Source of the DNA: Clavaria fumosa
Lineage: Eukaryota; Basidiomycota; Agaricomycetes; Agaricales; Clavariaceae
Direction of reading: 5' to 3'
Assembly: GCA_951802425.1 (NCBI GenBank)
Contig: OX637801.1
Span: forward strand, 1,364,001-1,428,000
DNA: 64,000 nucleotides
Numbering within the stretch: position 1 is the first letter of the stretch; every line of letters begins with the position of its first letter. Of this stretch, positions 39,886 through 60,166 are shown piece after piece. The notes under the pieces were generated by a model, which worked only from the letters and a program-made list of their open reading frames with translations, was not told where the DNA came from and made no database searches. The position numbers and the translations under genes are program-made.

Positions 39886-42800
39886 ATGCGCAAAGCTCTC
39901 GACACCACCATGGTGAAGCTCAAGTCATCATCGAGACCGCGGTCCGACGCCTTCATCGTTCTACAAAATGCTCTCATAGGTCTCAAGGATTTGGCGGGCA
40001 TGATGGGGGTGCCAGGCTTGCAGGAAGGTATCGGGGTATTTGTGATACTCTTCAATGCTATTCAGGTGTGTGAATCGTCCCATTTGCCCGTATCACATCT
40101 GTTACTAATCTCCCTGGGCAGAAAACCTCACAGAACAACAGTGACTTGGTCTCACTGGCCTTGCGTGTCCGAACCTTGTACGAAATGCTGCAAAGGGCAT
40201 CCAGTGGGGGCACCCTGTCTCCAGAAATGACTAACTCCGTCAACCACTTATCTGTGTGAGATATGATTCCCTGGCCATAGTCCTTTGTTGATCTCGGATT
40301 GCAGAACATGGAAGTCTATCGGCGAGGGAGCTCGGCATATGCTTACTCGGAACCGGTTTAGGCGTGTCCTCGCCCGTGACCGCGATGCTCTTGACATTGC
40401 AAGTCTCATCTCTGCCATCAATGACTCAATACAAGCTTTCCTGGTAAGAATGAGCCATGCATTTAGACCCCGTCATTGAACCATCTTGCAGGTTCAAAGT
40501 GCAATTACCTTCGAGGCCAGGAGCATTACCATTCAATCCGATATCAATGTTTGTTTTCTTTTGTCAGCATCCGTCATCATGTCTCACATAAATCATGCAT
40601 CAGGAAATAAAGATGAAACTCGACTTCAATGGTAATGGTTCTGTCTACATGTAGTATTATGCTGATACTAGGTCCATTGTGCAGCTGGTCTGACTGTGCC
40701 TTGGGCAATCACTGCCCAATTCAACTCCAATAATATACTAGTCCCATGTCTTGATGGGACTCGTAAAGAGGTTCTTGATGAACTGTACCAGTGGATTGGT
40801 CATGGTGTTAAAAACGCGTCCCAAGAGCATGCACCTACAGCTCCTGACACTTCCTGTGTCATAGGAAGCGAGCGTATATTTTGGATCAATGGTGTGGCGG
40901 GAAGTGGGAAGACCACCATTGCTGTCTCAGGTGCAAAATATTGTGAGGAGAAAGGGATCTTAGCTGCGAGCTTCTTCTGCTCCAGGGATAATGCCGATTG
41001 CAGCAACCTCGGGTTGATATTCACTACCGTTGCCCATCAATTGGGACAGTTTTGTCCTGGGTTCAAAGCTTGCCTGTCGGAAGTCATTGGGTCCAATCCC
41101 GGAGTTGTCTATTCCAATGTCTCCAATCAGTTGGAAAAGATGATTGTCAGGCCATTGCTTGCTATCAGGGATAAATTCCCTCCAAGCGTGGTTGTGATTG
41201 ATGCTCTGGATGAATGCAAAGATGACAATTCCACATCCACAATTCTAGCATCTTTATCTCACCACATTGACAAGTTGTTCCCATTGCAATTTCTGATCAC
41301 AAGTAGACCAATTCTCCCAATTACTGGAGCATTTCAAGAACCACAGCTCAGAAATGCAACCAGACCATTGATTCTTCAAGAAATCAGCTTGGGTACTGTT
41401 GAAAAAGATATCCAGCACTATCTGAAATGGCACCTTGATGCTATTGGGCACAAATATCACTTTCCTTCATCCTGGCCCTCTCCTAAAGATGTTGAGGCCT
41501 TGACCCATATGTCCTCAGGGCTCTTCATTTTTGCTGCCACTGCAGCAAGGTTCATTGCAGTTGCTGATCCCATGGGGCAACTGAAGATACTTTTAAACAC
41601 AAAGACTGTTGCTGGCTCCTCTCCTATCCAGCATCTTGATCAGTTATACTCTCAAGTGCTCAACACTGCATTCCCAAATATAAGTCCTGGGCTTGCAGTC
41701 AAATTGCGCTTGATTCTTGGTGCTGTGGCACTCCTTCAGGATCCTCTCCCAGCAGATCAATTGGAAGATCTGCTTGACTATGACACCAATGTCAATGGCT
41801 ATCTTCAGCATCTGCAGGCAATAGTCACTGTTCCAAAAGATGGTGCTGGAGTCATTCGATTGATCCACCCATCATTCTTTGACTTCATAGTGGATCCCAC
41901 CAGATGTCATGAGGAACAATTTAGAGTGAATCCTCAAGAACAGCACACTATCCTGGCTGAAAAATGCCTGACAATGATGAAAAGGCTAAAAAAAGATATT
42001 TGCTGCATAAGGGACCCCACCAAATTCAATCATGAAGTGTCAGGTCTCCCAGAGATGATATCAGAACACATCTCAGGTAGTCTGCAGTATGCCTGTAGAC
42101 ACTGGGGATTTCATCTTTGTAGTGGGGTGCTTTCAAGCAATGTCTTGCAGCTTCTGGCAGGCTTTTGCTCAAATCATTTGGTCCATTGGATTGAAGCCTG
42201 CAGCCTACTTGGTTATTTGAAAGATGCACTGCAAATGTTGGCTTCAGTGCATGCTTGTCTTGCAGTAAGTGCATGTTCTTGTGAAATGACATTGCAAAAC
42301 TTACATGTAATCTTTTGTAGATGAACAATCACAAGGACACAACTGTCTCATCAATATTATCTGATGGTGCTAGAATGATTCAAGAGTTCTTTCCAGCAAT
42401 TAGTGTGTCTGCATTGCATGTGTATTTTACAGCATTGCCTTTCACACCAGTTGGCACTGAACTGTACAAAGCCTATCATGATCAGATAGAGGGAGCAGTG
42501 GTAGTGCAAGGAGCATTGCCAGCACAGTGGAGTGCATGTGTGCAGGTCCTGGAGGGACATCACAAATCTGTCACATCAGTCTCATTCTCTCCAGATGGCA
42601 CAAGGATTGTCTCAGGATCAGAAGATAGTACAGTGAGAGTGTGGGATGCAGTCACTGGTGCTCATCTGCAAACACTTGAGGGTCATGCTGATGAGATCAG
42701 ATCAGTGTTATTTTCTCCTGATGGCACAAAAATAATATCAGGGTCCAATGACAATACAGTGAGAACATGGGATGTTGTCACCAGTGCTCATCTTCAAAGC

Positions 42801-44435
42801 CTTGAGGGCCATTCCAATACAGTCACATCACTGTCATGCTCTCTAAAAGAAAAAAATAGGATAATATCAGGGTCTTTTGATGGGACAGTAAGGGTGTGGG
42901 ACCCAGACACCAGTGATCATCTGAAAACATTTGAGAACCATTCCAGTTTGATTACATCAGTGTCATTATCTTCAGATGACAAATGGATTGCATCAGGATC
43001 CTCTGACAACACAGTCAGAGTATGGGATGCAATGACTGGTGTTCACCTACACACACTTGAGGGCCATGATGATTGGATCAGATCAATTGCATTCTCTCCA
43101 GATAATACAATGGTAGTCTCAGGGTCTGATGATAGGGATGTGATATTATGGGATGTAAAGACTGGAAATAATCTGCATACACTCACAGGCCATTCTGGTG
43201 GGATCACATCAGTGTCATTTTCTCCAGATGGCACAAGGATAGTCTCAGCAGCAGATGATAAGACAGTGAGAGTGTGGAATGCCAACACTGGTGACCACCT
43301 GTACACACTTGGGGGACATTCTGATGGGATTACATCAGTGTCATTCTCTCCTGATGGCACGAGGGTAGTATCAGGGTCTGAGGATAGAACAGTGAGAGTT
43401 TGGGATTCAGTGGGTGCACAGGATGGTGTGAATGGTATTCACCTTCCAACACTTCAGAGCCATTTTGATGTAATCACATCTGTGTCATTCTCTCCAAATG
43501 GCACAAAGATAGCCTCAGGGTCTAATGACAATACCATAAGAGTGTGGGATGCAGTGACTGGTACTCATATACAAACACTAGAGGGCCATTCTGGTCAGAT
43601 CAAATCAGTGTTGTTCTCTCCAGATGGAGCAAAGCTGGTCTCTGGGTCTTTTGATAGGACAGTGAGAATATGGGATGCTATCACTGGTGCTCATCTGCAA
43701 ACACTTGGGGGTCATTTTAGGACAATCAGATCTATATCATTCTCTCCAGATGGCAAAATGTTGGTCTCAGGGTCTGATGACAAGGAGATGAGAGTATGGG
43801 ATGCAGACACTGGTGCTCATCTGCATACACTTGAGGGCCATTCTGATGGGATCACATCAGTGTCATTTTCCCCAGATAGCACAACAATAGTCTCAGGTTC
43901 CTATGACAGGATTGTGAGAGTGTGGAATGCAATACCTGGTTCTTGTATGCATACATTTGAGGGTCATTCTGGTCCAATTCAATCAGTTTCATTCTCACCA
44001 GATGGCACAATGATAGTTTCAGGGTCTCATGACACAACAGTGAGAGTGTGGAATGCAGTCACTGGTGCTCATCTGCACACACTTGAGGGCCATGATGATT
44101 GGATCAGATCAGTTACATTCTCTCCAGATGGCACAATGGTAGTCTCAGGGTCTTATGACAGAAAAGTCAATGTGTGGGATGCAACCACTGGTTTGCTTCA
44201 TGCCAGTCACAGTGATTCAAACAAGGGGAGGTCATGGCCATATCTCATGGAAAATGGTTGGCTTTCCACTGCTTTCACAGCACATAGGCTTTGTTGGGTT
44301 CCTGTGGCTTATCGCAAATTGCAATTACCCATCACTGATCAAGTGCCTGTGGTAATGCCTCAACACCACATTGTTATCCTAAATTTTGCTGCCCTAAATT
44401 CCTATCTCACACAGGTTGATTCACCTCCACTTTGA
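39886..44435 (+). CDS. NACHT-WD40 STAND (NLR-like) protein
   Basis: Seven exons (39886-40065, 40122-40255, 40305-40443, 40492-40548, 40604-40631, 40685-42264, 42321-44435) join in phase to 1410 residues. Residues 1-180 are helical (VLQNALIGLKDLAGMMGVPG, LALRVRTLYEMLQRA, DIASLISAINDSIQAFL) and resemble the HeLo/MLKL-like four-helix region of basidiomycete STAND proteins (inference). The NACHT part has Walker A GVAGSGKTT (249-257) and Walker B VVVIDALDEC (348-357). From residue 783 there are 13 WD40 repeats of about 42 residues, very similar to each other (consensus SVSFSPDGT..VSGS.D.TVR). Such proteins act in non-self recognition and regulated cell death in fungi. Base composition is more AT-rich than the neighbours. 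A retrotransposon sits 210 bp downstream. Confidence 0.88.
42544..44200 (+). repeat. Thirteen tandem WD40-coding units of about 126 bp
   Basis: Each unit encodes LEGH-x-x-x-I-SVSFSPDGT..VSGS.D.TVRVWDA.TG.HL-T. Nucleotide similarity between units is high, suggesting recent amplification or gene conversion. The seventh unit carries a six-residue insertion (around GAQDGVNGI). Unit 3 lacks the usual FSPDG motif. Confidence 0.85.
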
Positions 44436-44645: not shown

Positions 44646-44989
44646 TGTTAGAGTTCTTCCGCTTCACCCCCCTTTCATGCTTCACCCCCCCCTTTTTCCA
44701 CCCATCACAACATGTGGACACCTCCCCTTCTCACGTATCACATGCATCATGCCGCGCCCCGTCTATGTTATCACGCATGAGTCATACCTGGCCTCACCTC
44801 TCGCGCACGGACTACATGCCCCTCCCACGTTGCTCTATGACTCATTCCCTTGTAGTATATAAGTAGTCGTACTCACCTGTAACAACTCCTTAGGTTGTTA
44901 CCTTCTATCACTTTGTCCCTTTGCTCCCATTCGGCTGATTCCGCTTGAGTCCCTCGAATACCCGGGAGTCAACCCGACGCTAGTTGACA
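44646..44989 (+). repeat. 5' LTR of element A
   Basis: 344 bp, TGTTAG...TTGACA. It has a TATA box (TATATAAG, 44856-44863) and a hairpin GTAACAAC/GTTGTTAC (44879-44886 and 44894-44901). An extra 20-bp copy of the GCTTCACCCCCC unit near its start makes it longer than the 3' LTR. Confidence 0.92.
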
Positions 44990-45000
44990 AGTAACAACCT
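44892..45000 (+). promoter_or_regulatory. Predicted self-priming pair and transcription start of element A
   Basis: The first bases after the 5' LTR (GTAACAACCT, 44991-45000) are the exact reverse complement of AGGTTGTTAC at 44892-44901 in the LTR. That LTR site begins about 36 bp downstream of the TATA box, where transcription should start. So the 5' end of the RNA could fold back onto the primer-binding site, as in Tf1. This is inferred from sequence only. Confidence 0.65.
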
Positions 45001-45594
45001 CTCCCCCGCCTACCTCCTCACGGACCTAGGCACCCACCCTCGCCCGAGTCGAAGCAAGACTCATGTATCTCGAGAAGAAAACTGGCGCGTTTTTGGACAT
45101 CATACGAACGATTGATTAGGAGGAGGGCCCTCCTTGGACTGGACACCGATACAGACTTTGAACAACTGACACCGCCGAACACACCACAATCCAGGACCTA
45201 CGAAGGATTCTTATACTCAAGACTATCCGAGGCTGCGCAGTTGGCGCCGAGATACCACTTTGCTACCAGAAGACTTTGCTTACCGAGAGATCCAAGCACG
45301 AACAACCCACTGTCAATCGCACACCTGCCAGAGTGGCGAACCTTCCAAAACCAGTTATTAGCTGCACTGACTGAAGCCGCTGCAGAAGAAGCGTACCTGC
45401 AAGAAACCCAGGAGTTCCTAGCCGAAGAAGAAGACCTCCTCGAGGAAGAAAGCGATTATCAAAGCGCTCTCGAAGAACTCGAAGAACCTACACACTTGTC
45501 TGCAACAACGCAGACCGACGAAGCACCCCCTACATACCGATCCACCGAAGCGCAGACCGACCTTACGTTCGGTTCACTGCAAGACCGTCTATGA
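44995..45594 (+). CDS. Leader ORF of element A, no ATG
   Basis: The frame is open from 44995 to 45594, and a translation from a TTG at 45112 gives 160 residues with an acidic, Glu/Leu-rich C-terminal half (EEAYLQETQEFLAEEEDLLE). There is no in-frame ATG in the whole stretch. It may need a near-cognate start or may have lost its ATG. An ATG at 45063 in another frame gives only 18 codons. Function unknown; a related pre-gag ORF in other copies would support it. Confidence 0.4.
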   Translation, partial: QPLPRLPPHGPRHPPSPESKQDSCISRRKLARFWTSYERLIRRRALLGLDTDTDFEQLTPPNTPQSRTYEGFLYSRLSEAAQLAPRYHFATRRLCLPRDPSTNNPLSIAHLPEWRTFQNQLLAALTEAAAEEAYLQETQEFLAEEEDLLEEESDYQSALEELEEPTHLSATTQTDEAPPTYRSTEAQTDLTFGSLQDRL

Positions 45595-45649
45595 ATAGAT
45601 ATTTTCCAAGACCCCCCGCGCATTTACCTCAAAGAACTAGATTGAGAGC

Positions 45650-46939
45650 ATGGCTGACGTAGCCCCCGACGCCGAACCCGCACCAGCAGCGCCCCTTGCA
45701 CCTGCTACGTTTTCACTGAAGATCGTTCCGTATGCTGGAGAAAGGCATGAGTTCCAGACGTTCTTGAGGAGCTTGCGCCTAGAGTTCCGACTAAACGAGG
45801 CGAAATACCCTACCGACTTCCATAAGGTGGTATTTTGCTTGAGCCACATGACGGAGAAATACGCGGCAGAGTGGGCAAACCAAGCCACGAACGTCTTACT
45901 AGAACCAGGAGGCGAAAACGTAATCTGGGCCACATTCGAAGCACGCATGAGGGAGACTTTTGCTCCCATCGAAGACCAGGCGTTAGCCGTTCAGGAACTG
46001 AACAACTTCAAGCAAGTAGGCATGGACGCCGCGCAGTTCTTCCAGAGGCTCGAAACCTTGATGAGCCGAGCCGGGTACGAGGAAGATACCCACTGGAACA
46101 TGATCCACGCTCTGCTAATGAGAGCACTACACCCGAAACTCATGGAGAAAATTCTCGCGTGTGCGGACCAGCCCGCCGACTACCAAGCCTTTCGCGTATT
46201 AGCTATACGCCTCGACAGACAACATCAACTGCATACGGCAGTACAAAGAGAGATGCGGGCACAAGCAACGCCACGCCCCGTCTGGAACCAGCCCGCACAG
46301 CGCCAACCCCCGCAGAACCGCTACTGGCGCTCACCCCAGTGGCAACCACAGGCAGTATGGGGAGGACAGAACCAGGGGAATGCACCACCCGCGCAGCCAC
46401 AGCAGGCACAATGGCAACCGCGCCCCCAACAGCAACAACAACAACAACAGCAGGCGCCGCCCCCCGGACAATGGAACAGACAAGCCCCGCCGGGTACCAG
46501 GCAAGGTACCCCTATGGACACGAGCCGAGGGACTGGCCCCCGCCACCCGCTCGTTTGTTACAATTGTGGACAAGTCGGGCACCCTGCACGGTTGTGCCCA
46601 GAGCCACCCCAACGTTGCGCCATGCCCAGACAGCAAGCGAGACTCGGCAGTGCATTTGAAATGCAGTCACCCCCTGGGTACTATACACTGCCCCCGCTGT
46701 CTCCATACCCAGTGCCCGCCTATCCACAATCGCACCCGGCCTCCCTCACATCGTTTAACCCTTCTTATGCCGCCTCTATTGCTACCCAAAATGACTTTGA
46801 AGAAATGGAGAATACCATCGCGCAGTTGCGGGACCAACTGCACATCCAACAGAGGCCCAGGGCACTGACACCTGGACCAGAGACAACTGTAGCAACGTCG
46901 AATGCCGGAGAAGAGGATTTTCAGCAGGGATCCGCCTGA
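45650..46939 (+). CDS. Gag of element A (retrotransposon gag plus CCHC zinc knuckle)
   Basis: A 429-residue intact frame. The capsid-like region (residues 20-190) includes FHKVVFCLSHMTEKYAAEWA and AAQFFQRLETLMSRAGY. A Gln/Pro-rich linker precedes the knuckle CYNCGQVGHPARLC (about residue 302), a C-X2-C-X4-H-X4-C motif. The pol frame is open through the 3' part of gag in the -1 register, so a frameshift is expected, but no canonical slippery heptamer was found near the gag stop. Confidence 0.9.
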   Translation: MADVAPDAEPAPAAPLAPATFSLKIVPYAGERHEFQTFLRSLRLEFRLNEAKYPTDFHKVVFCLSHMTEKYAAEWANQATNVLLEPGGENVIWATFEARMRETFAPIEDQALAVQELNNFKQVGMDAAQFFQRLETLMSRAGYEEDTHWNMIHALLMRALHPKLMEKILACADQPADYQAFRVLAIRLDRQHQLHTAVQREMRAQATPRPVWNQPAQRQPPQNRYWRSPQWQPQAVWGGQNQGNAPPAQPQQAQWQPRPQQQQQQQQQAPPPGQWNRQAPPGTRQGTPMDTSRGTGPRHPLVCYNCGQVGHPARLCPEPPQRCAMPRQQARLGSAFEMQSPPGYYTLPPLSPYPVPAYPQSHPASLTSFNPSYAASIATQNDFEEMENTIAQLRDQLHIQQRPRALTPGPETTVATSNAGEEDFQQGSA

Positions 46940-49728
46940 GTGCTAAGGCAGGATCCTTATATATTGTACCCGCCCGCCGCCATGTAAAACGAGCCATGAA
47001 TGACATCCCACTATTTCCATTGTCGAAAGAGGCTGAGAGGGCTAAGCACACCCTCAAAGACCTCACCTCTAAGAAACTCCCAGGATATAATGATGATGTG
47101 GATTGGGACACCGACCCCAAGATCACATATGGGAGAGGAGGAGAATGGCAATTGGACATGCCAGGATTCGTGACCACCTTGGACACCAGAGAGACCTATG
47201 ACATCAAACTGCTAATCGACTCTGGCTGTACAATGTCTGTCATGGACCTGGAATGGGCCACCGCTAGGAAAATGAATCTTGCAAAACTCGAGACTCCTAT
47301 AATATTCAAAAATATCGATGGGACCACAAATGTATCAGGGGCCTTTAAACACTCGGTGGCCCTACGACTCAATATTGGAGGCCACGTCGAGATCAAGCAG
47401 TTCCTACTAGGGTGAGTCACCGGTCATCCAGCGATTCTAGGACATGATTGGCTCCAGTACCACAACCCCAGTATCCGATGGTTCGAGAAATACATCCGCT
47501 TCGACAAGTGCAAGAAGAAAGACTGTCACATTGTGGATTACGGCCATGGCTTTCGAAGCCTACACGACACGGCAACCACGCCTGACTGGAAGGCCTTATA
47601 CCCTCAGGTGTTTGCTGGAAAGACTGGCCAGAGACTACCCAAATCTCTACCGGGAATCGACTATGAAATCAAATTCAAAAATGACCCCGGTTTCCTACGC
47701 TCGAAAGTCTACCCACTCACCAATAGGGAAGACGAGGCTTTGAAAGCTTGGCTCAAAGAAAATTTGGAAAACGGCCGACTAGTCTGGGGAGAGTCGGACT
47801 ATGTTAGTCCGATTTTCTTCAAAGACGAAGGGGACAAACTACGACCCATTATCGATTATAAGCGCTTGAATTCGTTTTGCGTCAAGGATATATACCCGCT
47901 ACCTAGGATCGACGAGACAGTGGCAAGCCTAAAGAAAGCTAAGGTGTTCTCAAGCACGGACGTGGAATGGGGCTATTGGAACGTCGCAATGGCCGAGTGG
48001 GCACAACACCTCGCCGTGATAATCACTAAATATGGCACGGTATGGCCCACCGTCATGCAGTTTGGACTAATGAATGCCCCTTCGGTCTTCCAAAGAAGAA
48101 TGAACTACATCTTTCGTACGCTGATAGCCACTGGGAAGGTGTTTGTGTACATCGACGACATCCTTGTGGCAACAGAAATGGTCGACGAACATCGACGCCT
48201 ACTACACGAGGTATTCAGGATATTGCAGGAAAACGACCTCTGCATTCGCGAATCGAAGTGCAAAATAGAACAGTCAGAAGTAACGTTCCTGGGACTGCTA
48301 ATCTCAGAAGGGAACATCCGGCACTCGCCCAAAAAATGTAGGGGGATAGCTGACTGGCCTGTGCCGAAGAACAAACACGCTCTTCAAAAGGGTATCGGTC
48401 TACTAAACTACTTCCGAAGGTTCATACAGGGATTCGCTACCATCGCCAAACCGCTATACGAACTACTAAGCGACAACGCACCGTATATCTGGATGGACCG
48501 ACAAGAACGAGCCTGGAGATGCCTAATCGATGTACTGCAGAGCGATGTAGTGCTGGCAATCCCACAAGACGTAGGCAAGTGGAAAATGGAAGTAGACGCA
48601 AGTAATTACGCCACCGGAGGAGTACTGTCACAGCAGCAACCCGACGGCGTCTGGTGACCAGTAGATTTCATTTCGAAAACCTTCTCCCCGGCGGAGATGA
48701 ATTATGCGACATACGACAAAGAGTTTTTAGTGATCATCAGGGGGCTAGAGGAGTGGCGCCACTACTTGCTGGGAGCCAAGGATCCTTTTGAAATCCACAC
48801 CGACCATGCAAACCTTCAGTATTTTCAAAAAAGCCAAAAACTCAACCCTAGACAAACGCGATGGCAGTCAAAGCTACAGTGCTTCAATTTTGAAGTGAAA
48901 TACAAACCGGGAAAAACAAACATGAAAGCGGACGCTCTCTCCCGACGACCGGACCACTGGGAGGGAACAGACAAGTACGAAAAACCCTTAGTACAGGTTT
49001 TCCCGGCCCAGCGCCTTGCTACACTCTTAATCCCTGAGCCGACAATTGATCAATTGCTCCTGGAGGCACACACAAACACTATGCCGCCTAAAGCGATACC
49101 CTACGAAAAAGGAGTAGATGGACTTTTCAGACACGAAGGAAAAGTCTGGGTACCCCAAGACCTAGTACACAAGGTGCTAATGGAGCTACATGACTCCCCA
49201 CTCGGAGGGCACCCTGGACCCGAGAAGACATTGGAAAGTGTCACCCGACAGTTCACGTGGCCAGGGGTCAAGGAAGACGTAACGGAGTATGTGGCCGGCT
49301 GCGAAAAATGCCAAAGGACGAAGCCTGACCGCACGAAGCGACGCGCGCCCCTGCACCCTCATGCAATACCACCTTGCCCATGGCACACCATCACTTGGGA
49401 CTTAATCGGACCGCTGTCAAAATCTGCCATGCACAATGCCATTCTCGTAATATGTGACAAGCTTACGAAAATGACCCTACTGGAAGCCACGGATACGAAG
49501 CTCACGGCACTAGGAGCAGCAAAAATCCTATGAGACCGTGTACTTCGTAGCCATGGAGTGCCTTGCAAGGTGATAAGTGACCGAGGATCCCAGTTCGTCT
49601 CGAACTTCATGGGGGAGTTCTACAAAATTATTGGGATAAAAGGGAACCCAAGTACCGCCTACCACCTGCAAACTGATGGGCAAACAGAAAGGATGAACCA
49701 GGAGATAGAAATATACCTACGCTCATAC

Positions 49729-50456
49729 TGTTACGTCTATGTCGCGGAGGTCGGGCGGAGTAAAGTCCGGGTGGGAATGACAAAGTCCGGGCAGGAGTAA
49801 CGAAGTCCGGGCGCGGTGGGGCGATCCGGAGTTTGGACGGAGTTGGACTTTGGGTTCGGACGAGACTTGGCGAACGTATTGAAACGACGCCCTCTGCGGA
49901 TCAGTGTCTCGGATTTCGGGAAGTCGAAGGAGACGGGTTTCGGGCTTTAGCGGAGTAGAATGCGAGTGGGCGAGGTTGATTATCAGACTGGCTAGACAAG
50001 GCCGTAATCTACGAGTACTTATACTAAAGTCCGGGGCGATGCTAGCGACGGAGATAACTCCGGTACGACTACGGAATCTGTTCGTAGCTACGGAGAAATG
50101 TCCGGGAGTCAGGAGAAGATCTTTACAACGGGACTACGGGACGGAGACGGAATCTGATCGAGACAAACGTTAAACTACTAACTATGATTGTATAGATGTT
50201 TCCGGGAGTCCATCAATTGTCTGGGCGACGGGTCCGGGGCAGGACCAGTTCCTGGTTGCTCGAGGCAACAGCAACTAGTGCGGACATCAGTTGGTGGCCC
50301 TTCAGGCACACTTCCTGATCCTGCGCTACGTCGCGCAAGTAAAGTCCGGCGCTCTGGACATAGGTCCGAGAGCCCGGAGTTGAGAACAGAGGTCCGGAGA
50401 CCGCCGGAGAAGGTCGGAGAAGGCCGGAGAATAGTCCGGTTGGCACGGGCGTGACA
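49729..50456 (-). repeat. 3' LTR of element B (left copy)
   Basis: 728 bp. It differs from the other copy by T instead of C at two CpG sites: near 49770 (GGGTGGG against GGGCGGG) and near 50221 (GTCTGGG against GTCCGGG). Near the left end AAGTCCGGGC-like words repeat three times about 20 bp apart. Confidence 0.93.
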
Positions 50457-50666
50457 GTATCTCCCTCTTAGGGCCGAGCCCTCGAGGCCCTGGATCCGTT
50501 ATCACCCCTGGACCGGATTGGGGCAATCGGATCAAGGCGATCGCGATCCGAGGACGGAAATGGGATCGGAGATTTCGTCGGAGTTCGAATTCCGTGGCCG
50601 GGTATATAATCCGGGGCAACAGTCCACCACCGGTCCCCCCTCCTTAGACCTGAACCACCACCAGGC

Positions 50667-51836
50667 ATGACTGACGAAGAAGACAACGGATACGAAGTAC
50701 AACTCCGGAAACTCCAGGCGGAGATGGAGGCGCTGAAGGCGGGGAAGGCGCGGAAGGAGAAGGAGGCGGCGGAGCGGAGGAGACAAGAGGAGGAGGCGGA
50801 GATGAGACGGAGAGAAGAGGAGGCGGAGCGGAAACGGAAGGAGGAGGAGGCGGAGACGAGGAGGAAGGAGGAAGAGGCGGGGAAAAGAGCGAAGGAGCGG
50901 AGGAAGGAGTTGGAGGCGGCGCGGGCCACGACGAAGATGGTGGCGAGCGTGGAGGAGTCGGTGCAGCTCCAGGAGGCGGCGGAGAAGGCGGTGCGGGAGC
51001 AAAAGGAGGAGGAAGCGCGGAGAAAGCGCGCGGCGGAGATCGCGGAGGCCCAGGGGACCTCTGCCGGAGTAACGTGTGAGCGTTGCTCCCTGAAAAAATT
51101 GGTAAGTCCTTGTTTCCTTGCCGGAGATCGTGCCAAACTCCGGTCCAGGAATGCAAATGGACGGGGCCGTCGAGGACCCGGAGTTGCGACGAGTGCCGGG
51201 AGAAGCGGGTCGGGTGCGTGTGGCCGGGGAAGGCCAAGGGCAAGGGCAAGGGAAAGGACAAGGGAAAGCGGGTCGCGCGTCGGGGGACGAAGTCCGACGC
51301 AATGGTGGAGTCGGATATGGAGCGGAGGTCGGAGACGGAGGCGGAGGGCGAGCCGGAGGTTGAAGCGAGGCCGGCGAAGAAGCTCCGGGCCGAAGATTAC
51401 GAGCCGGAGCTGGATCTCCAGTCCGCGAACTGGTTCCTCCGGGCCAGCGCGGAGAAGAACAACGAGATCCGGATGCACCGGAACTCGATGGTGAAGGGGC
51501 TGGAGAAGATGACGAGGAGGCTGGAGGCGGCGATCGGGCAGGTGAGTCTTTTCCGGGGCTTCCGTGGAGTTCGGAACTGAACTCCGGCAGCTCGTCCCGG
51601 ATTTCGTCGAGCACCTCAACATGAACAAGATGATCGCGGAGAGGGATCAACTTGCGCAGGATAACCGGATCCTGCAGAGGGTGCTGGAGCGACGGGATCC
51701 GGAGTTGGCCCGGGCGGTGGAGCAGGAGAGTGCGCGCTCCCGTCGATCTTCGTTGGTGGGAGTGCAGCCGGAGACCGGAGATGCGGAGATGGAGGCGGAG
51801 GATGCGGAGGGGGAACCGGACTTAGGTCCGGTGTAA
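50667..51836 (+). CDS. Antisense spliced gene in element B: coiled-coil protein with Zn2Cys6 cluster
   Basis: Exons 50667-51101, 51149-51541 and 51591-51836 join in phase at GT-AG sites (introns 47 and 49 nt) to 357 residues. Residues 1-130 are Glu/Lys/Arg-rich heptads (LQAEMEALKAGKARKEKE), a likely coiled coil. The first splice joins CERCSLKKL to ECKWTGPSRTRSCDECREK and RVGC, giving C-X2-C-X6-C-X10-C-X2-C-X6-C, the exact fungal binuclear zinc-cluster pattern. A second helical region follows (ASAEKNNEIRMHRNSMVKGL, MNKMIAERDQLAQDNRILQ). The gene converges with pol (stop codons 82 bp apart) and starts next to the 3' LTR. It may be a captured host gene or an element-encoded regulator. Confidence 0.7.
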
Positions 51837-51918
51837 ATTATCATATATATATATTTTTTTTGTTTGCGAATCGGAATTCCGTTGATCGGACTTCGTGTGA
51901 ATTAAGTCCGAGCGGAGG

Positions 51919-54900
51919 CTAAACTCCGAGTGGTCCGGGTCTGTCAGGGTAAGCAGAGTGGAAGTCCGCGACGAGGTCCGGTGCGTGGTCAAGCTCCGTG
52001 GCGAGCAGCCAGGAGGTCTCTTCGTCGGTTCCCTCATAACCCGTCCACCGGACCAAGTAGAGTAGCTTACAATTCTTCCTCCGGTTGTCGTACTTAGAAT
52101 CCAAAATCTCCGTGATCTCGAATTCCAGTTCTCCGTCGACAACTACAGGTTCCGGAGGGGGCTGGATCCGGTTCGGAATGGTGTTCGGTGTCGCCAATTC
52201 CAGCATTGAAACGTGGAATACCGGATGTACGGAGCGGAGGGTTTCCGGGAGTCGGAGCGTGAAGGAGCTTCGTCCGGCTTGAGCGATGATCTCGTAAGGT
52301 CCGAGCATTTTCTCGCTGAGCTTTTTGGACGGTCGGGTGGTGCGGAAGAATTCCGCCTTGACGAAAACCTTGTTTCCGACGCGGAAATCCGGGGCCGGAA
52401 GACGATGCTGGTCAGCGGACTTTTGGTACCATTGCTGCGCGGCAAGGATTTGTCGCCGGAGTTCCTGGTGGAGAGTTTCCAGGTCAGCGACATATGTCCG
52501 GGCACGGGAGGAGGTCATGTCCTGATCGACGCGGACGGAGATGCTAGGGTGGTAACCCTTGTTAGCAAAGAACGGTGAAATTCCGGTCGTCTCGCTCGGA
52601 GCGTTGTTGTAAGCGAACTCCGCGAGCGGGAGGAGTTCAGACCAGTTGTCTTGCTGATAATTACAGTAAGACCGGAGATACTGCTCCAGGGTCTGATTCA
52701 ACCGTTCGGTTTGACCGTCTGCCTCCGGATGATGTCCGGACGTGAAATGGAGAGTCATGTCGAGCGCTTTCCCAAGGGAGCGGAAAAAGTGAGAAACGAA
52801 TTCCGGTCCGCGATCGGAGGTTACGTGCGAGGGAACTCCGTGCTTGGAGAAGACATGCTGGACGAAAAGTCCGGCAAGGTCCGTCGATGTAACCGTGTCG
52901 TAGGTCGGAGTAAATATTCCTTGCTTGGAAAAGCGGTCAACGACGACAAGGATGGAATTAAATCCGTCGGATTGCGGGAGGTGTTCAATGAAGTCCATGG
53001 AGATTGAATTCCATGGTAATTCCGGGACCGGGAGTTGGTGGAGGAGACCGTAAGGTCGGTGCCTTCGGGGCTTCGATCTGCCGCAGTTAGTACAGGAGTT
53101 GCAATACTCCGAGACAAAACTGCGAAGTCCGGGCCACGTATACTCCCTTCGGATCAAATCCAGGGTTTTGTTTTGTCCGAAATGTCCGGAGATCGGGTGG
53201 TCGTGCCTGTACAGCAGGACACGGAGTCGGAGGTCGTTGGAGTCTGGAACATATATCCGGTCGTCCAGTCGCAGGAAGCCGGACGCATCTACAGTCCACC
53301 GGGGATTATCTCCGGTGCCTGAGAGAACTTTGTCCAGGCGTGTGCTTGCGACCGGATCATCGCGGAGCGAGTTCCGGATGTCCGTTCGGAGTTTTTCCTC
53401 GTCCATGACAAGGACGGATCGGAGTGCGAGTCCTTCGAGGGAGGTTGCTCGGAGGGAGGTGGCCAGCTGTTCGGAGGTGAAAATCGGTCGGAGGTTTTGC
53501 GGATTTACACTGGCGTAGCCACTATCTCCCTCTTTGGGGTAAACGTCCCATCGTCGGGTAAGAGTGTCGGGTTTTGTTCCAAGTTTTCCGGGGCGAAATC
53601 GGATAACCATATTGAAACCGGAGAGGAATTCCGACCACCGGGCCTGTCTCCGAGACAAAGTCCGGGTAGTTCCGAAGTATTCCAGGTTCTTGTGGTCCGT
53701 AATAACGTGGACCGGAATAGCGGAACCTTCGAGGTAGTGACGCCACTCACCGAATGCCTCGAATATGGCCAGGAGTTCCTTGTCGTGGGTGTCGTAGTTC
53801 AACTCCGCGTCATGGAGTGTCCGGGAGTGAAAAGCGACCGGATGAATTTCTCCGGGTGGCGATTCCACGGAGAGTATGGCGGCGACCGCGTAGTCCGAAG
53901 CGTCTGTTTCCACAATTATTGGGACGTCGGGGACAAAGTTCGCCAGTATCGGGGCCGAGGTAAAAGCCGTCTTGAGGGTTTCGAAGGCTTCCCGGCAGTC
54001 GGGGTTGAAGTTCCAGATGGAGGACTTCCGTGTGAGTCGGGTTAAAGGGACGACGATGTCGGAGTACCGGAAGACAAATCTCCGGTAGGAGTTGGCGAAT
54101 CCGAGGAAGGACTGGACGTCCTTCACTTTCCAGGGCTCCGGCCATTCCGTAATGGCTTTCACCTTCGCCGGGTCCATCGCGAGTCCTTCCGGAGAAAGCA
54201 GGAAACCTAGGTACTCAACTCTTTCAGTATGGAAAAAGCATTTCCCTGCGTGAGCGAAAAGTCCGTTAGCGCGTAAGCGCCGGAATACTTCTCGGACATG
54301 CTCTACGTGCGTTTCCAGGTTGTCGGAGTATACCAGGATGTCGTCCAGATAGACGATCATGAATTTGTCCAGGAGGTCGGAAAACACATCATTTACGAAG
54401 TGTTGGAATGCCGCAGGGGCGTTAGTAAGTCCGAAGGGCATAACGCACCATTCGAACGAACCGTACCGGGTCCGGAAGGCGGTTTTCCATTCATCGCCTT
54501 CCGCGATCCGGACCAGATGGTAGGCGTGCCGGAGATCGATTTTGGTGTAAACCTTAGCACTTCCGGCTACGTCCAGCAGATCACGGGTCAGAGGGATCGG
54601 ATATCGGTCTTTCCGGGTGATCCGGTTAAGGGCTCGGAAGTCCACGCATAGCCGGAGACTTCCATCCTTTTTCCGGACGAATAACACAGGAGCTCCATGG
54701 GAAGAGCTAGTCGGGCGGATGAATCCGATGCGGAGATGTTCATCGAGGAAATCCCGCAGTGTACGGAGCTCCGTCTGGGAGAGGGAATATATCGGCCCAT
54801 GGGGCGGAGTTTTGCCTTCTTCCAGATTAATCCGGAGGTCGTACTGTCGATGCGGAGCCAGAGTGTCCGCTTTCGTCTTGCTGAACACATCAGCGAAGTC

Positions 54901-55619
54901 GTGGTATTCCTCCGGGACGGAGGACAGGTCCACCGGTTCGGTCGCGACGGAGCGGACGGATGTTTCGTCACCAAAGTGGTGCAGCATGAAAGTCCGAGAT
55001 CCCTTTGATTCGGAGATCTTGGTAAATTCCATCGCGTTGACAAAACGAATCTCCGCGTGCCGTGGTGGTGATTTCGGAGGAGGAGTGAGGACCGTAGTTC
55101 CCACTTTCGGAGTCGGGGTTCGGGGGTCGGAGGTCGGATTTGATGTTCGGGAATACTCCGGTGTCCGGAATTCGATACTGCCTCTTACCCAGTCAACCAA
55201 CGGGTTGTAGCGGGTGAGCCAGTTATATCCGAGGACAGCGGAGCAGGCGGGATCCATTCGGGCTACCAGGAATTCTAACTTGAAAAGTTCTCCAGTAGGG
55301 AATTGGACGGAGAGGGTGAGTTTGGAGTCGACGACGTCCGTGGAGGAGCCATCGAAGAGTCGGAGTGACATGGGAGAAATCGGAGTTGTCCGGAGTTTGT
55401 TTTCCTTAACGAAGTCGGGACTTATGAAACAGTGCGATGACCCGGAATCAACCAGGGTCCGGAAATACGGGGAACGATCTATATTCGGAGCAGACAAAGT
55501 TATATACAGGGAGTCGGAGGAAGGGGAAACGGCAGATGCGCCGAGGCGGAACTCGTAACGTGCACTGGCTGGGGCGGCGCGGTCCTCCGGTAGTGCGGAC
55601 TTCGAAGGGCCGCTCAGGA
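51919..55619 (-). CDS. Pol polyprotein of element B (PR-RT-RNase H-integrase-chromodomain)
   Basis: About 1230 residues in one uninterrupted frame in the -1 register relative to gag. There is no ATG near its start; it is open from the slip site. The protease has TLVDSGSSHCF. RT has LCVDFRALN, MPFGLTNAPAAFQ and MIVYLDDILVYS. RNase H has VETDASDYAVAAIL. The integrase has the H-H-C-C finger (HPISGHFG...CNSCTNCGRSK), DFIEHLP, TSDRGPEFVSHFF and DGQTERLNQTLEQYLRSY with the DDE residues. The chromodomain follows (FEITEILDSKYDNRRKNCK, LLYLVRWTGYE, TSWL). The element could be autonomous. Confidence 0.93.
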
Positions 55620-56768
55620 GTTTTTTGCCCGAGCAGCCGCAGCCTTAACCTCCGGAACTGTGTCGGAGGTCGTGACGGTTCGGGCCTTCTTGCCCTGCGT
55701 GTTCCGGGACTTCGGGCAGTCCTTCGCAACATGTCCGGTACCTCCGCAAACAAGGCAGAGGTTGTTGTCGAAGCGGCGTTTCCGTTCCTCCGGAGTTAGC
55801 TTCCCGTCTTTGCCGATCTTGTTGTCCTTCGGGGGATCGGTCTTTCGTGCGGATCCAGAGGCGTTCGAAGTTCCTCCGGAATTGTTGGCGGGTTTGTTTC
55901 CTCCGGACGATTGTCCGGAGTTGTTTCCTTGGCGGGGCTTGCTGTCGGATTTCGTGGGCGCGTCGCGGGAACATTCTCCTTGACGCTCCCAGTATCGCGC
56001 GTCGATGTCCTGGCAGAGTTTGCGCAGGACAGGGAGGGAAGTCGGTTTCCCGACTCGGGAGATCTCGTCCTTGAGGCGGTTCGGGAGTCCGCGGTAATAG
56101 TTGTGCCGGAGCGCGGCTTCGTCCCACCGGAGCCGCGCGGCAATCCGGTTAAACTCGACGTTGTACGTCGTGATCCGTTGGGAGTCTTTCATGTGGAGGC
56201 GGTCGAGTTCGGCCTCCGCATCTCCGACGGGATCGTGCGGTCCGAAGTTATCCCGGAGTTCCTGGACGAATAAGTTCCAGTCGGAAATCCAGTCGGCGTC
56301 CGGGGCTTCGCCTAGGAGAGCGGGTTCGAACCACTCGAGAGCAGTTCCCTGCAGGAAGGAGATTGCAAAGTTTATCTTCACCGAGTCCTCGCTGAAAGTC
56401 CTCGGTCGGTCTCGGAAATTTAATTCGCATTGAACCAAGAAGCTGCGGAGCTTCTTGGCGTTGGAGCCGTTGAATGGCTCCGGTTCCTTGACGCGGGAAG
56501 ACGATGCGCCTCGTTCCTTGGTGGACGCGGCCAAGGCGCGAATCGCGTTCGCGAGGTTCGGGGCTTCGGTGTCGGGGTCGGATAAGGGGGAGTCGGGTTG
56601 TTCAGCCGGAGGAGAACGGGATCGGGTTTTACGTGGAGCGGGTTGGGCTGGTTCGTCCCCCTCGCCAGGAGGGGTCGGGTTAATTAGTTCTCCAACGTCG
56701 GACCCACCAGGGGTCGTCGGTCTGGCACTTGGGCGCAAGCGGCCACTGCGTCGGGGAGGTTCGGACAT
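55614..56768 (-). CDS. Gag of element B
   Basis: 384 residues. The N-terminus is Pro/Arg-rich. The capsid-like region includes KINFAISFLQGTALEWFEPA, WNLFVQELRDNFGPHDP and NRIAARLRWDEAALRHNYYR. The zinc knuckle CLVCGGTGHVAKDC is at about residue 343 (C-X2-C-X4-H-X4-C). The last codons before the TGA contain the heptamer A-AAA-AAC, so part of the product should continue into pol. Confidence 0.92.
   Translation of the reverse strand: MSEPPRRSGRLRPSARPTTPGGSDVGELINPTPPGEGDEPAQPAPRKTRSRSPPAEQPDSPLSDPDTEAPNLANAIRALAASTKERGASSSRVKEPEPFNGSNAKKLRSFLVQCELNFRDRPRTFSEDSVKINFAISFLQGTALEWFEPALLGEAPDADWISDWNLFVQELRDNFGPHDPVGDAEAELDRLHMKDSQRITTYNVEFNRIAARLRWDEAALRHNYYRGLPNRLKDEISRVGKPTSLPVLRKLCQDIDARYWERQGECSRDAPTKSDSKPRQGNNSGQSSGGNKPANNSGGTSNASGSARKTDPPKDNKIGKDGKLTPEERKRRFDNNLCLVCGGTGHVAKDCPKSRNTQGKKARTVTTSDTVPEVKAAAARAKNS
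55620..55626 (-). promoter_or_regulatory. -1 ribosomal frameshift heptamer A AAA AAC at the gag/pol junction of element B
   Basis: Read in the gag frame the codons are GCA AAA AAC TCC TGA, so the heptamer fits the X XXY YYZ rule exactly and lies one codon before the gag stop. After a -1 slip the frame continues without a stop into the protease. Retroviruses use the same heptamer. A downstream stem or pseudoknot was not tested. Confidence 0.75.
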
Positions 56769-56785
56769 TGTGAGCGCAGAGTGGT

Positions 56786-57061
56786 CAGTCTGATAATACT
56801 GTTACGTCTATGTCGCGGAGGTCGGGCGGAGTAAAGTCCGGGCGGGAATGACAAAGTCCGGGCAGGAGTAACGAAGTCCGGGCGCGGTGGGGCGATCCGG
56901 AGTTTGGACGGAGTTGGACTTTGGGTTCGGACGAGACTTGGCGAACGTATTGAAACGACGCCCTCTGCGGATCAGTGTCTCGGATTTCGGGAAGTCGAAG
57001 GAGACGGGTTTCGGGCTTTAGCGGAGTAGAATGCGAGTGGGCGAGGTTGATTATCAGACTG
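56786..57061 (-). promoter_or_regulatory. Predicted self-priming pair and transcription start of element B
   Basis: The sense strand immediately after the 5' LTR contains ATTATCAGACTG (56797-56786), the exact reverse complement of CAGTCTGATAAT inside the LTR (57061-57050). The LTR site begins 33 bp downstream of a TATA box. A 12-nt match in this position fits the Tf1/sushi self-priming mechanism, in which the 5' end of the RNA pairs with the PBS instead of a tRNA. Inferred from sequence. Confidence 0.7.
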
Positions 57062-57527
57062 GCTAGACAAGGCCGTAATCTACGAGTACTTATACTAAAG
57101 TCCGGGGCGATGCTAGCGACGGAGATAACTCCGGTACGACTACGGAATCTGTTCGTAGCTACGGAGAAATGTCCGGGAGTCAGGAGAAGATCTTTACAAC
57201 GGGACTACGGGACGGAGACGGAATCTGATCGAGACAAACGTTAAACTACTAACTATGATTGTATAGATGTTTCCGGGAGTCCATCAATTGTCCGGGCGAC
57301 GGGTCCGGGGCAGGACCAGTTCCTGGTTGCTCGAGGCAACAGCAACTAGTGCGGACATCAGTTGGTGGCCCTTCAGGCACACTTCCTGATCCTGCGCTAC
57401 GTCGCGCAAGTAAAGTCCGGCGCTCTGGACATAGGTCCGAGAGCCCGGAGTTGAGAACAGAGGTCCGGAGACCGCCGGAGAAGGTCGGAGAAGGCCGGAG
57501 AATAGTCCGGTTGGCACGGGCGTGACA
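56800..57527 (-). repeat. 5' LTR of element B (right copy)
   Basis: 728 bp. Read on the minus strand it has a TATA box (TATAAGTA, about 57088-57095) and then, 33 bp on, CAGTCTGATAAT (about 57050-57061), the predicted transcript start. The gag start codon is 31 bp past its inner end. Confidence 0.93.
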
Positions 57528-58378
57528 CATACGTCGATTTCATGCAAGACGATTGGTCGGATTGGTTGCCCACTGCGGAGTTCGCTCTGAATAACCGACA
57601 ACACTCTGCCACCAAGTACAGCCCCTTCTTCCTAAATTATGGCTTTCACCCTCGTATGGGCGATATTAGCCTGCCTGACGTGCCACACACCCCAGAGGCC
57701 TCTGACTTCGCCGCAAAATTGCAGAAAGCCAGGGAGAATGCCAAGAAGGCCATGGAGAAAGCCGCACAATATATGAAAACCGCCTACGATAAACATAAAA
57801 ATAAAAAAACACTGGACTACAAGAAAGGGAGCCTGGTCTGGCTAGATGCCACTAACCTGAACACGGAACGACCGTCGGAAAAGCTCACAGACAGAAGGGT
57901 TGGCCCTTTCGTGGTTGTGGAGAAAGTGGGACCAGCCGCCTACCGACTCAACCTGCCAGCGACTTGGAAAATCCACCTGGTATTTAACGAAGTACTGCTT
58001 ACGCCGTATAAGGAAGGAAAATTCCCTAACCAAACTCCGGACGAACGCCCACCTCCCGAGTTGATCGATGACCACTTACAATATGATGTAGAAGAAGTAC
58101 TGAAGAGCCGGAAACACAGGCGCAAACTGCAATACTTGGTGAAATGGGCCGGCTACCCCCATGAGGACAACACGTGGGAACCGAAAGCGAACCTGAAGAA
58201 AGCGGCCGAGGCAATCGCGGACTTCCACCGAAAACACCCTGAGGCAGCCTGTTCTCTCACAGTATCTTTTGCCTGAGTAACTCACACGTTCAGGGTCAAG
58301 CACTTAAAAAGAAAACCACAAGCGACTCCACCCACCGAACACCTTCCTCCTCTCCCCTTACAACCTACACCCACTGCC

Positions 58379-59131
58379 ATGCCGCCCGACCGCACTCCTC
58401 AAATCCCACGCTGCGGAACTTACGCTCGCCGTGCTGCGGGATGGCCAAACCACCTACCGCGCCCACCCCCCGCTGAGACCACCCGCCAACGACCCGCGCT
58501 GGACCTGCGACCTGGACCGGACCCGCGGGGTACGCCGCCGGCACTCCAACACCCCCCCTCATCCCCTGGAACAACTGCCCGCATGCGCCATATCTTAGAC
58601 GCGGTGCGGATCCCCCATGCACGCCGAGTATTGGGATTAGACCCCCCACCACTGATGACGGACGACCCCCCTTCGCGGATACCACAATTTCGACGAAACC
58701 GAGAGCTCCTGGAGCCGGAGGACGACGTCTGGCTCCGCAGGATGGCCGAGCGGCTCAGCGTAAGCTTTAGCCGTGCGATGTGGACCAAACTGCGAGGACT
58801 GCAGTTTGAGCAGCAGCGACGCATCCTCCGTGCCTCCCCCGTCCTCGTCGAATTATGGGTGAATTCTCGGAGCTCGAGGCTGTGATTCGAGGTCCCGTTA
58901 CCACCGGAGCCTATCTTACAAGAAGAATGGGCCGTACACCAAAGTCGCACAGGCCCCCCCTGGGTCATACCCGTTTCCACCGACGTCATGACCCCGTGGA
59001 TTGTCCCTGCCAACGCCTACGAACACCCTCTCGTGCCCGACACACGCGACACGAGTATCGACCCCCCCACCGAACTCGAACCGCCAACGGAACCACAACC
59101 ACGCAAACGACAGGAGAGTCCGGAGGCCTAG
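58379..59131 (+). pseudogene. ORF3 of element A (unknown, Pro/Arg-rich), broken by one TGA
   Basis: A frame downstream of the chromodomain starts at ATG 58379 and runs to a TGA at 58883. The same frame then continues open and protein-like (VPLPPEPILQEEWAVHQSRT and a Pro/Thr/Glu-rich end) to TAG at 59129. The codon could have been CGA, as with the pol stops. A helical segment (LLEPEDDVWLRRMAERLSVS, MWTKLRGLQFEQQRRILRA) suggests a folded part. No signal or membrane span, so not envelope-like. Function unknown. Confidence 0.5.
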
Positions 59132-59154
59132 CGGGCCCGTCGAGATGACGGACC

Positions 59155-59169
59155 ACTGAGGGGGGATAA
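59155..59169 (+). promoter_or_regulatory. Polypurine tract of element A
   Basis: CTGAGGGGGGATAA lies directly before the 3' LTR, the position and composition expected for the plus-strand DNA primer. Confidence 0.7.
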
Positions 59170-59493
59170 TGTTAGAGTTCTTCCGCTTCACCCCCCTTTT
59201 TCCACCCATCACAACATGTGGACACCTCCCCTTCTCACGTATCACATGCATCATGCCGCGCTCCGTCTATGTTATCATGCATGAGTCATACCTGGCCTCA
59301 CCTCTCGCGCACGGACTACATGCCCCTCCCACGTTGCTCTATGACTCATTCCCTTGTAGTATATAAGTAGTCGTACTCACCTGTAACAACTCCTTAGGTT
59401 GTTACCTTCTATCACTTTGTCCCTTTGCTCCCATTCGGCTGATTCCGCTTGAGTCCCTCAAATACCCGGGAGTCAACCCGACGCTAGTTGACA
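59170..59493 (+). repeat. 3' LTR of element A
   Basis: 324 bp. It matches the 5' LTR except for three substitutions (near 59262, 59278 and 59460) and lack of the 20-bp duplication. The TATA box and hairpin are preserved. Confidence 0.92.
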
Positions 59494-59498
59494 TGCAC

Positions 59499-60166
59499 TG
59501 ACTTCTATGTGTATGTATTCCACCACAAATCACACTTGCACTGCTGTAGCAGCTATGGCAAGCTATGCTCTAGCTATAAATTTCCTTCATTCTACAAACA
59601 CAAAAGTAAGTTTGCTGATGTGTGTGCTCTTCCCTAATCATCTGTTAGTACATTATATCAACCAAATAGCTTACATGGTGGGGGCACATGCCATCCATGG
59701 TACTATAGTATAGCACAATAAAGAGGCTGGTAAGAAAGTTGGGCTCATTCCAAGCCATCCGATGTCATATGTTAATCATAAAGGATCATTTCATACTTGT
59801 TGCATTTAGCTGCAGTCTCCAACAGCCATGAGGAAACGAAAAGGGGGGAGAAAAGGGAGATGAGATGAGATACAGCGGACCTGGCGCAGTTAATACGTAT
59901 ACATTGCCCTGATGAAAAGTTTCCGAATGGGAAAAAAAAAAGGGTGTATGAGGGCGGGCTGTGTAGCTGGCACGCAAGTCATCATGTTTGTATTTTTCGA
60001 CTGGCACTCGGCGGAGGGACAACGAGGGGAGGACGAGTACACGTAAAACGAGCAACAACGCAGTGGCGGACATCCACGTGTATGTATGTACAGCACGCGC
60101 GGGCGAGTCGGGAGGATGTGTGATGTGCACTGTGACATGGGGAACACCCAAGAGCAAAGCACAGAA
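59499..60166. other. AT-rich intergenic sequence after element A
   Basis: The first 280 bp are as AT-rich as the NLR gene and its flank before the element, so the element probably inserted in an AT-rich intergenic segment. A 68-codon frame (59507-59713) is not convincing. The rest is 3' UTR-like sequence for RPP2. Confidence 0.4.

Follow-up and report, generated by a model that had tools for sequence, protein, structure and literature searches.

A spliced antisense gene for a probable zinc-cluster-type protein in a Ty3/gypsy retrotransposon of Clavaria fumosa, and a TCCGG word that it may read

The stretch of Clavaria fumosa DNA analysed here (the window; 64,000 nucleotides of contig OX637801.1) contains a 7.8-kb chromodomain Ty3/gypsy retrotransposon, element B, on the minus strand at 49729-57527. 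B has the gag, the PR-RT-RH-INT order, the chromodomain, the LTRs and the TSD of a chromovirus, and it is inserted in the integrase of a second gypsy element (A, plus strand, 44660-59500), whose pol resumes beyond B. The interval that separates the pol stop from the 3' LTR of B holds, on the strand opposite to gag-pol, a three-exon gene (50667-51836, plus strand) for a predicted protein of 357 aa. Its place and orientation are those of the aORF-3R class, defined as an ORF between pol and the 3' LTR in the orientation opposite to gag-pol. Element A gave no match to this gene in a protein search of the own genome. The features of B are listed below, with their occurrence in other B copies and in a distant relative, family C, where these were compared.

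49724..49728, no strand: left copy of the TSD, CATAC
49729..50456, minus strand: 3' LTR of B, 728 nt, TG..CA
50457..50470, minus strand: putative PPT, purine-rich in the element sense, adjoining the 3' LTR; a similar tract in family C
50603..50609, plus strand: TATATAA box, outside the LTR; in 22/24 B copies and 8/8 C copies
50640..50669, plus strand: 5' leader continuing into the ATG; near-identical in B and C
50667..51101, plus strand: exon 1, a highly charged stretch, then the first two cysteines
51102..51148, plus strand: intron 1, GTAAGT..CAG, 47 nt, after the 2nd cysteine and before the 3rd; at this same place in family C
51149..51541, plus strand: exon 2, the remaining cysteine cluster, a Lys-rich stretch and a linker
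51542..51590, plus strand: intron 2, GTGAGT..CAG, 49 nt; missing from family C
51591..51836, plus strand: exon 3, a C-terminal heptad-like stretch, an acidic tail and the stop codon
51919..55497, minus strand: pol with protease, RT, RNase H, integrase and chromodomain; open
55614..56768, minus strand: gag with a CCHC knuckle; open
56786..56797, minus strand: 12-nt word adjoining the 5' LTR and complementary to LTR RNA of B itself; putative site of self-priming
56800..57527, minus strand: 5' LTR of B, with 2 differences from the 3' LTR over 728 aligned bases
57528..57532, no strand: right copy of the TSD, CATAC

Next to the putative PPT lies a short and imperfect hairpin, at 50472-50489 of the window in B (GGCCGAGCCCTCGAGGCC) and at L041:41-58 in C (GGTCGAACCCTTGAGACC), for which only 4 pairs are predicted. 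Two changes between the B and C hairpins look compensatory, and in some B copies one side only is altered. In family C, the counterpart of the 12-nt word of B is 11 nt long (L046, about 535-545) and differs from it in its letters; Tf1-like self-priming has apparently been kept in B and C via a compensating change.

The first-pass annotation of this DNA, made from the letters alone, had proposed three exons with canonical introns, a product of 357 residues and a cysteine cluster that appears after splicing. All of this was reproduced, and the splice sites are kept in every B copy compared. The motif CX2CX6CX10CX2CX6C arises solely with the donor at 51102 and the acceptor at 51148. In the window alone, however, 54 GT-AG combinations leave the spliced frame open, 9 of them with the motif present. 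An open spliced frame is thus weak evidence by itself, and a comparison of copies was needed. The same annotation had labelled the protein a coiled coil. This does not hold for residues about 29-75, which are 75-82% charged and almost free of large hydrophobic residues, so that this stretch does not qualify as a classical heptad coiled coil; a spacing like that of heptads, as judged from the sequence, is seen at residues 1-28 and about 239-300.

A DNA search of the own genome returned at least 43 matches, including 29 nearly full-length ones at 84-100%. We compared 24 B copies, namely the window copy, L017-L036, L010, L013 and L014. The antisense gene is present in all 24, although the copies were located through this very gene. 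The expectation that the frame and splice sites would recur in other copies was borne out for the start and the splice sites throughout and for the open frame in about half. The ATG is present in 24/24 copies (one codon later in some), and the GT and AG of both introns are intact in 24/24, with intron 1 measuring 47 nt in all and intron 2 measuring 49 nt in 23 copies and 48 nt in one. That both introns are kept in every copy is as expected if introns antisense to the genomic RNA outlast retrotransposition, as had been suggested. The spliced frame is fully open in 13/24 copies and broken in 11/24; the length of exon 1 is divisible by three in 19/24. Breakage is also common in the gag and pol of B copies.

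Five of the copies (L019-L022 and L025) have a common target site and flanking repeat and were scored as one insertion. L033 and L036 were also scored as one, on the basis of a common target word and a place near contig ends. Among the resulting 19 independent insertions, 10 have an open antisense frame. The insertion that recurs with its flank on five contigs, never more than about 240 kb from a contig end, is a subtelomeric segmental duplication. The six-Cys complement is whole in 18/24 copies (17/19 insertions), and the first cysteine is lost in two insertions, L017 and the L021 group. L021 has a gag-pol without stops and an LTR identity of 99%, yet its first cysteine is missing. The whole cluster is therefore not strictly required in cis, which argues that supply in trans suffices or that the cluster is sometimes dispensable.

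Selection was assessed as omega, corrected for mutation class, in pairs drawn across two B subgroups of 10 and 9 insertions, the pairs not being mutually independent. The first-pass reading implied that dN/dS should depart from neutrality, and it did: omega was 0.45 for the antisense gene as a whole (codon bootstrap 0.36-0.57) and 0.21 for the cluster codons 131-175. The alternative frames +1, +2, -0 and -2 gave about 1.5, and frame -1 gave 0.53, a value that is not independent because this frame mirrors the coding frame. As yardsticks in the same copies, omega was 0.25 for pol (8 x 6, two fragmentary copies excluded; 0.34 when the two pol fragments were included) and 0.31 for gag (7 x 6). Columns with two alleles, each in at least 3 copies, fell 37/43/83 on the three codon positions. 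An MK-like contrast was not significant for the antisense gene (fixed 4 N:7 S, polymorphic 227:199, p=0.36); it was significant for pol (p=3e-5) and borderline for gag (p=0.05). The substitution pattern among the copies showed that the antisense gene of B is under purifying selection, strongest at the cluster.

The protein search of the own genome returned 25 more distant places, of which 8 were read (L037-L044, not strictly the strongest) and 17 left unread. These 8 make up family C and are about 77-97% alike in DNA among themselves. In the one C element read with both ends, the LTRs are about 1.28 kb long and 95% alike, and they have the ends TGTTACG...CGTGACA in common with B. A pol remnant lies antisense to the C gene in 5/8 loci (E<=1e-4); none was detected at this threshold in L037 and L044, and in L043 the strand that bears the gene also bears the gag of another element. 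Intron 1 sits at the position it has in B, with lengths of 42/58/72/73 nt, and intron 2 is missing. Exon 1 has six lengths (411-462), a multiple of three in 8/8 copies. The C gene is open throughout in three copies (L037, L038 and L041; 384-410 aa) and has one stop in L042, and the frame is lost in or after the cluster in L039, L040, L043 and L044. Omega for the C gene was 0.64 (0.51-0.77), calculated from 7 copies over the first 310 codons with L039 left out.

B and C have the pattern C..C..K.L.C..TGP.R..SCDEC.EK...C.WPG in common, with a protein core that is 32% identical. Their pols match at about 25-31% over longer stretches, the C pol being decayed; since the gene is common to two families whose pols are this distant, it has been retained for long. 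Seven pol stop codons are common to the four C copies tested (L038, L040, L041 and L042), and 5 of these 7 are TAA or TAG, not TGA as would come from CpG decay of CGA. The left flank of L041 was not found, among the matches listed, at the LTR starts of the L040 and L042 elements, so that L040, L041 and L042 are separate insertions. The common stops thus indicate that C spread without a working pol, and the antisense frame was kept nonetheless.

The Zn2Cys6 class (PF00172) has the consensus spacing CX2CX6CX5-12CX2CX6-8C, and CGG words are preferred by this class. The spacing was found in 18/24 B copies and 7/8 C copies. Against a Pfam cut-off of 21 bits, two B cores scored 14.2 and 13.3 bits and three C cores 22.9, 21.4 and 16.9 bits, two of the latter lying above the cut-off. 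At full length, one C protein scored 16.6 bits and another had no match listed, and full-length B had no PF00172 match at E<=1. None of the 5 cores tried matched any Pfam family better than PF00172. By these profile scores the membership of the cluster in the Pfam family is borderline. In all three C cores, the second CX2CX6C aligns to the first half of PF00172, and the half-clusters may be in swapped order in C; as the two B cores are in ordinary order, this is only a lead. Gal4-type fungal PF00172 regulators have a basic stretch and a helix-like part after the cluster. The B/C protein resembles them in these features and in its cysteine spacing, and differs in the long charged stretch in front and in a Pfam score near or below the cut-off.

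Database searches returned no relative of the protein, either for residues 134-290 (E<=0.001, 203 candidates) or for a four-sequence alignment (E<=0.01, 7999 candidates scored); as only candidates with exact words in common were scored, this is weak evidence for an absence of relatives. The same database does contain fungal proteins: it gave relatives of pol at about 67-74%, and the best 120 matches listed included records from Leucocoprinus, Trametes, Agaricus and Pleurotus. Solved structures gave 3 matches, all at chance level, and a search of the host genome for PF00172 genes gave 16 matches.

The richness of the element and its LTRs in CCGG/TCCGGA words, also noted at first pass, was evident in the counts. 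CCGGA is the top enriched B pentamer among those seen at least 20 times (14-fold over window positions 1-44600), and the density of TCCGG/CCGGA per kb in B is 23 in the LTR, 20 in the antisense gene, 19 in pol and 16 in gag. In C it is 21 in the LTR, 10 in the gene and 16 in the dead pol; the background is 1.3 per kb in window positions 1-44600, and the element around B, A, has 1.0-4.1. The 3' LTR of B contains the word 17 times (12 + 5 by direction), and it contains AAGTCCGG 5 times, in one direction. In pol, CCGGA uses all three codon phases (16/26/25) and its count of 67 compares with 34.9 (SD 5.0) in 200 synonymous shuffles. The word count exceeded all 200 shuffles for B pol and for the B antisense gene, whereas in gag (z 3.0) and in the C gene (z 2.2) some shuffles reached it; in five control frames it fell inside the shuffle range (z -1.2 to 0.3).

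Over the loci read, 600-base windows had a median of 16.7 words per kb at >95% B/C homology and of 0 at <5%. Windows of <5% homology reach 27 per kb in a third TCCGG-rich repeat (L021:8067-9701 and L023:8500-9701; 92 genome matches, without B/C homology), and two other window places have 10-12 per kb. In up to 1.65 kb read, no antisense zinc-cluster gene was seen in the third repeat. Two copies of it lie on contig C7 in opposite orientation, about 7 kb apart.

In the LTR pairs of 13 insertions, 237/248 differences are transitions, and by site they fall on 197/1695 CpG, 29/884 CpA and 8/2735 CpC + CpT. This CpG-biased decay is a mark of CpG methylation. The CpGs of the motif show no protection (39/405 decayed vs 158/1290 other CpGs, p=0.16), and since they decay as the others do, lower mutability is not what maintains the word.

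Antisense ORFs between pol and the 3' LTR are known from maize Grande (gene23), rice RIRE2, Silene Retand (TRP28), PvRetro13 and fungal Boty (PMC7264820, PMC11963269), and the function of such antisense accessory ORFs of retrotransposons is described as undetermined (PMC7264820). The known ORFs are like that of B in place, orientation and retention in many copies, a nuclear or DNA-binding role has been suggested, and maize Grande also has its own upstream promoter; the ORFs encode TRP28, SMC or no known domain (PMC7264820, PMC11963269). The words 'zinc' and 'antisense' are absent from the main text of a survey of fungal and plant chromodomain elements (PMC2864245), and among the papers listed by our literature searches on fungal LTR elements we found no zinc-cluster or antisense accessory gene beyond Boty. 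Unlike the known ORFs, that of B has a Zn2Cys6-type cluster across a conserved intron, lies in a fungal chromovirus and has been retained by the pol-dead family C. HBZ of HTLV-1 is a nuclear protein of bZIP type, made from a spliced antisense transcript with an antisense promoter in the 3' LTR. It is named in PMC11963269. The gene of B is likewise antisense, with a predicted spliced transcript and a probably nuclear product, but is of zinc-cluster type and has its TATA box outside the LTR; homology is not claimed. VANDAL elements are DNA transposons. For the VANC proteins of the Arabidopsis VANDAL elements, binding and methylation loss have been demonstrated (PMC5735166, PMC10398659). VANC resembles the B protein as an element-encoded factor whose own element is dense in a short word and has host methylation as its adversary (in B, as the LTR decay suggests), and differs in that its word lies mainly in non-coding DNA and that it is a different protein. 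VANC may be the closest working analogy to the B protein.

Taken together, these sequence comparisons show that B and C carry a real antisense gene under purifying selection, and they make it somewhat probable that its product is a DNA-binding protein, one that would bind TCCGG/CCGGA and act on the element's own chromatin. The antisense transcript would start at a TATA promoter of its own, located in the stretch that joins the 3' LTR to the gene, and would then be spliced. The product, probably nuclear, would combine the charged stretch, the Zn2Cys6-type cluster, the Lys-rich stretch and a C-terminal dimerisation-like helix, and with its predicted zinc and DNA binding would most likely bind the CGG-containing TCCGG/CCGGA that fills the element. 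Bound protein would switch the LTR on or keep it free of host CpG methylation, and copies bearing the word, including those of the pol-dead family C, would stay transcribable. Only tentatively do we extend this to sequence-specific anti-silencing or self-activation in an LTR retrotransposon, in which an antisense-encoded zinc-cluster protein reads TCCGG, the element, its coding parts too, has been reshaped at the DNA level into a platform of the word, and the pol-dead family C has spread keeping both. Here an antisense accessory ORF can be assigned to a recognisable DNA-binding class, the element that carries it is rich in a candidate target word, selection is focused on the binding domain, and the pol-dead family C is a natural experiment; the role of antisense accessory genes thereby becomes directly testable.

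Alternatively, a real accessory DNA-binding protein could serve another step, such as nuclear entry, integration-site choice or packaging; the richness in TCCGG would then reflect some unrelated pressure on the composition of several repeats. The word is indeed also dense in the third repeat, where no such gene was seen, and the charged stretch and basic runs would suit a scaffold or nuclear protein, nuclear localisation being reported for maize Grande GENE23 (PMC7264820). We nevertheless consider this rather unlikely, as a CGG word suits the Zn2Cys6 class and is enriched beyond codon usage in the pol and the antisense gene of B. The antisense RNA could itself be the selected product, pairing with the 3' genomic RNA and tuning retrotransposition or feeding RNA silencing; the transcript would match the genomic RNA as its complement over the full length, and roles of antisense RNA have been discussed for other elements (PMC7264820). 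This is improbable, because an RNA need not keep an omega that is low and lowest in the cysteine cluster, a C exon 1 in threes while intron length varies freely, conserved splice sites or a protein core recognisable between B and C. Equally hard to sustain is a passenger, a host zinc-cluster gene that was captured once and now hitchhikes, owing its conservation to descent from a recent active lineage: the introns and the own promoter resemble a host gene and host PF00172 genes exist, but omega is well below 1, the gene was retained for long in two families with distant pols, and the pol-dead family C kept it. Capture of a host gene, which the first-pass annotation had also considered, found no support, as every place read from the protein search of the own genome, including 8 of the 25 distant ones, was of type B or C and none was a host copy. 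A chance open frame is ruled out by the splice-site conservation among B copies, the family C gene with its exon 1 in threes and the low omega.

Elsewhere in the window, at 42321-44435, lies a WD40-repeat ORF of 704 aa. It contains zero CGG or CCG triplets vs about 15 in synonymous shuffles, and its repeats are mostly 126 nt apart and 62-74% alike.
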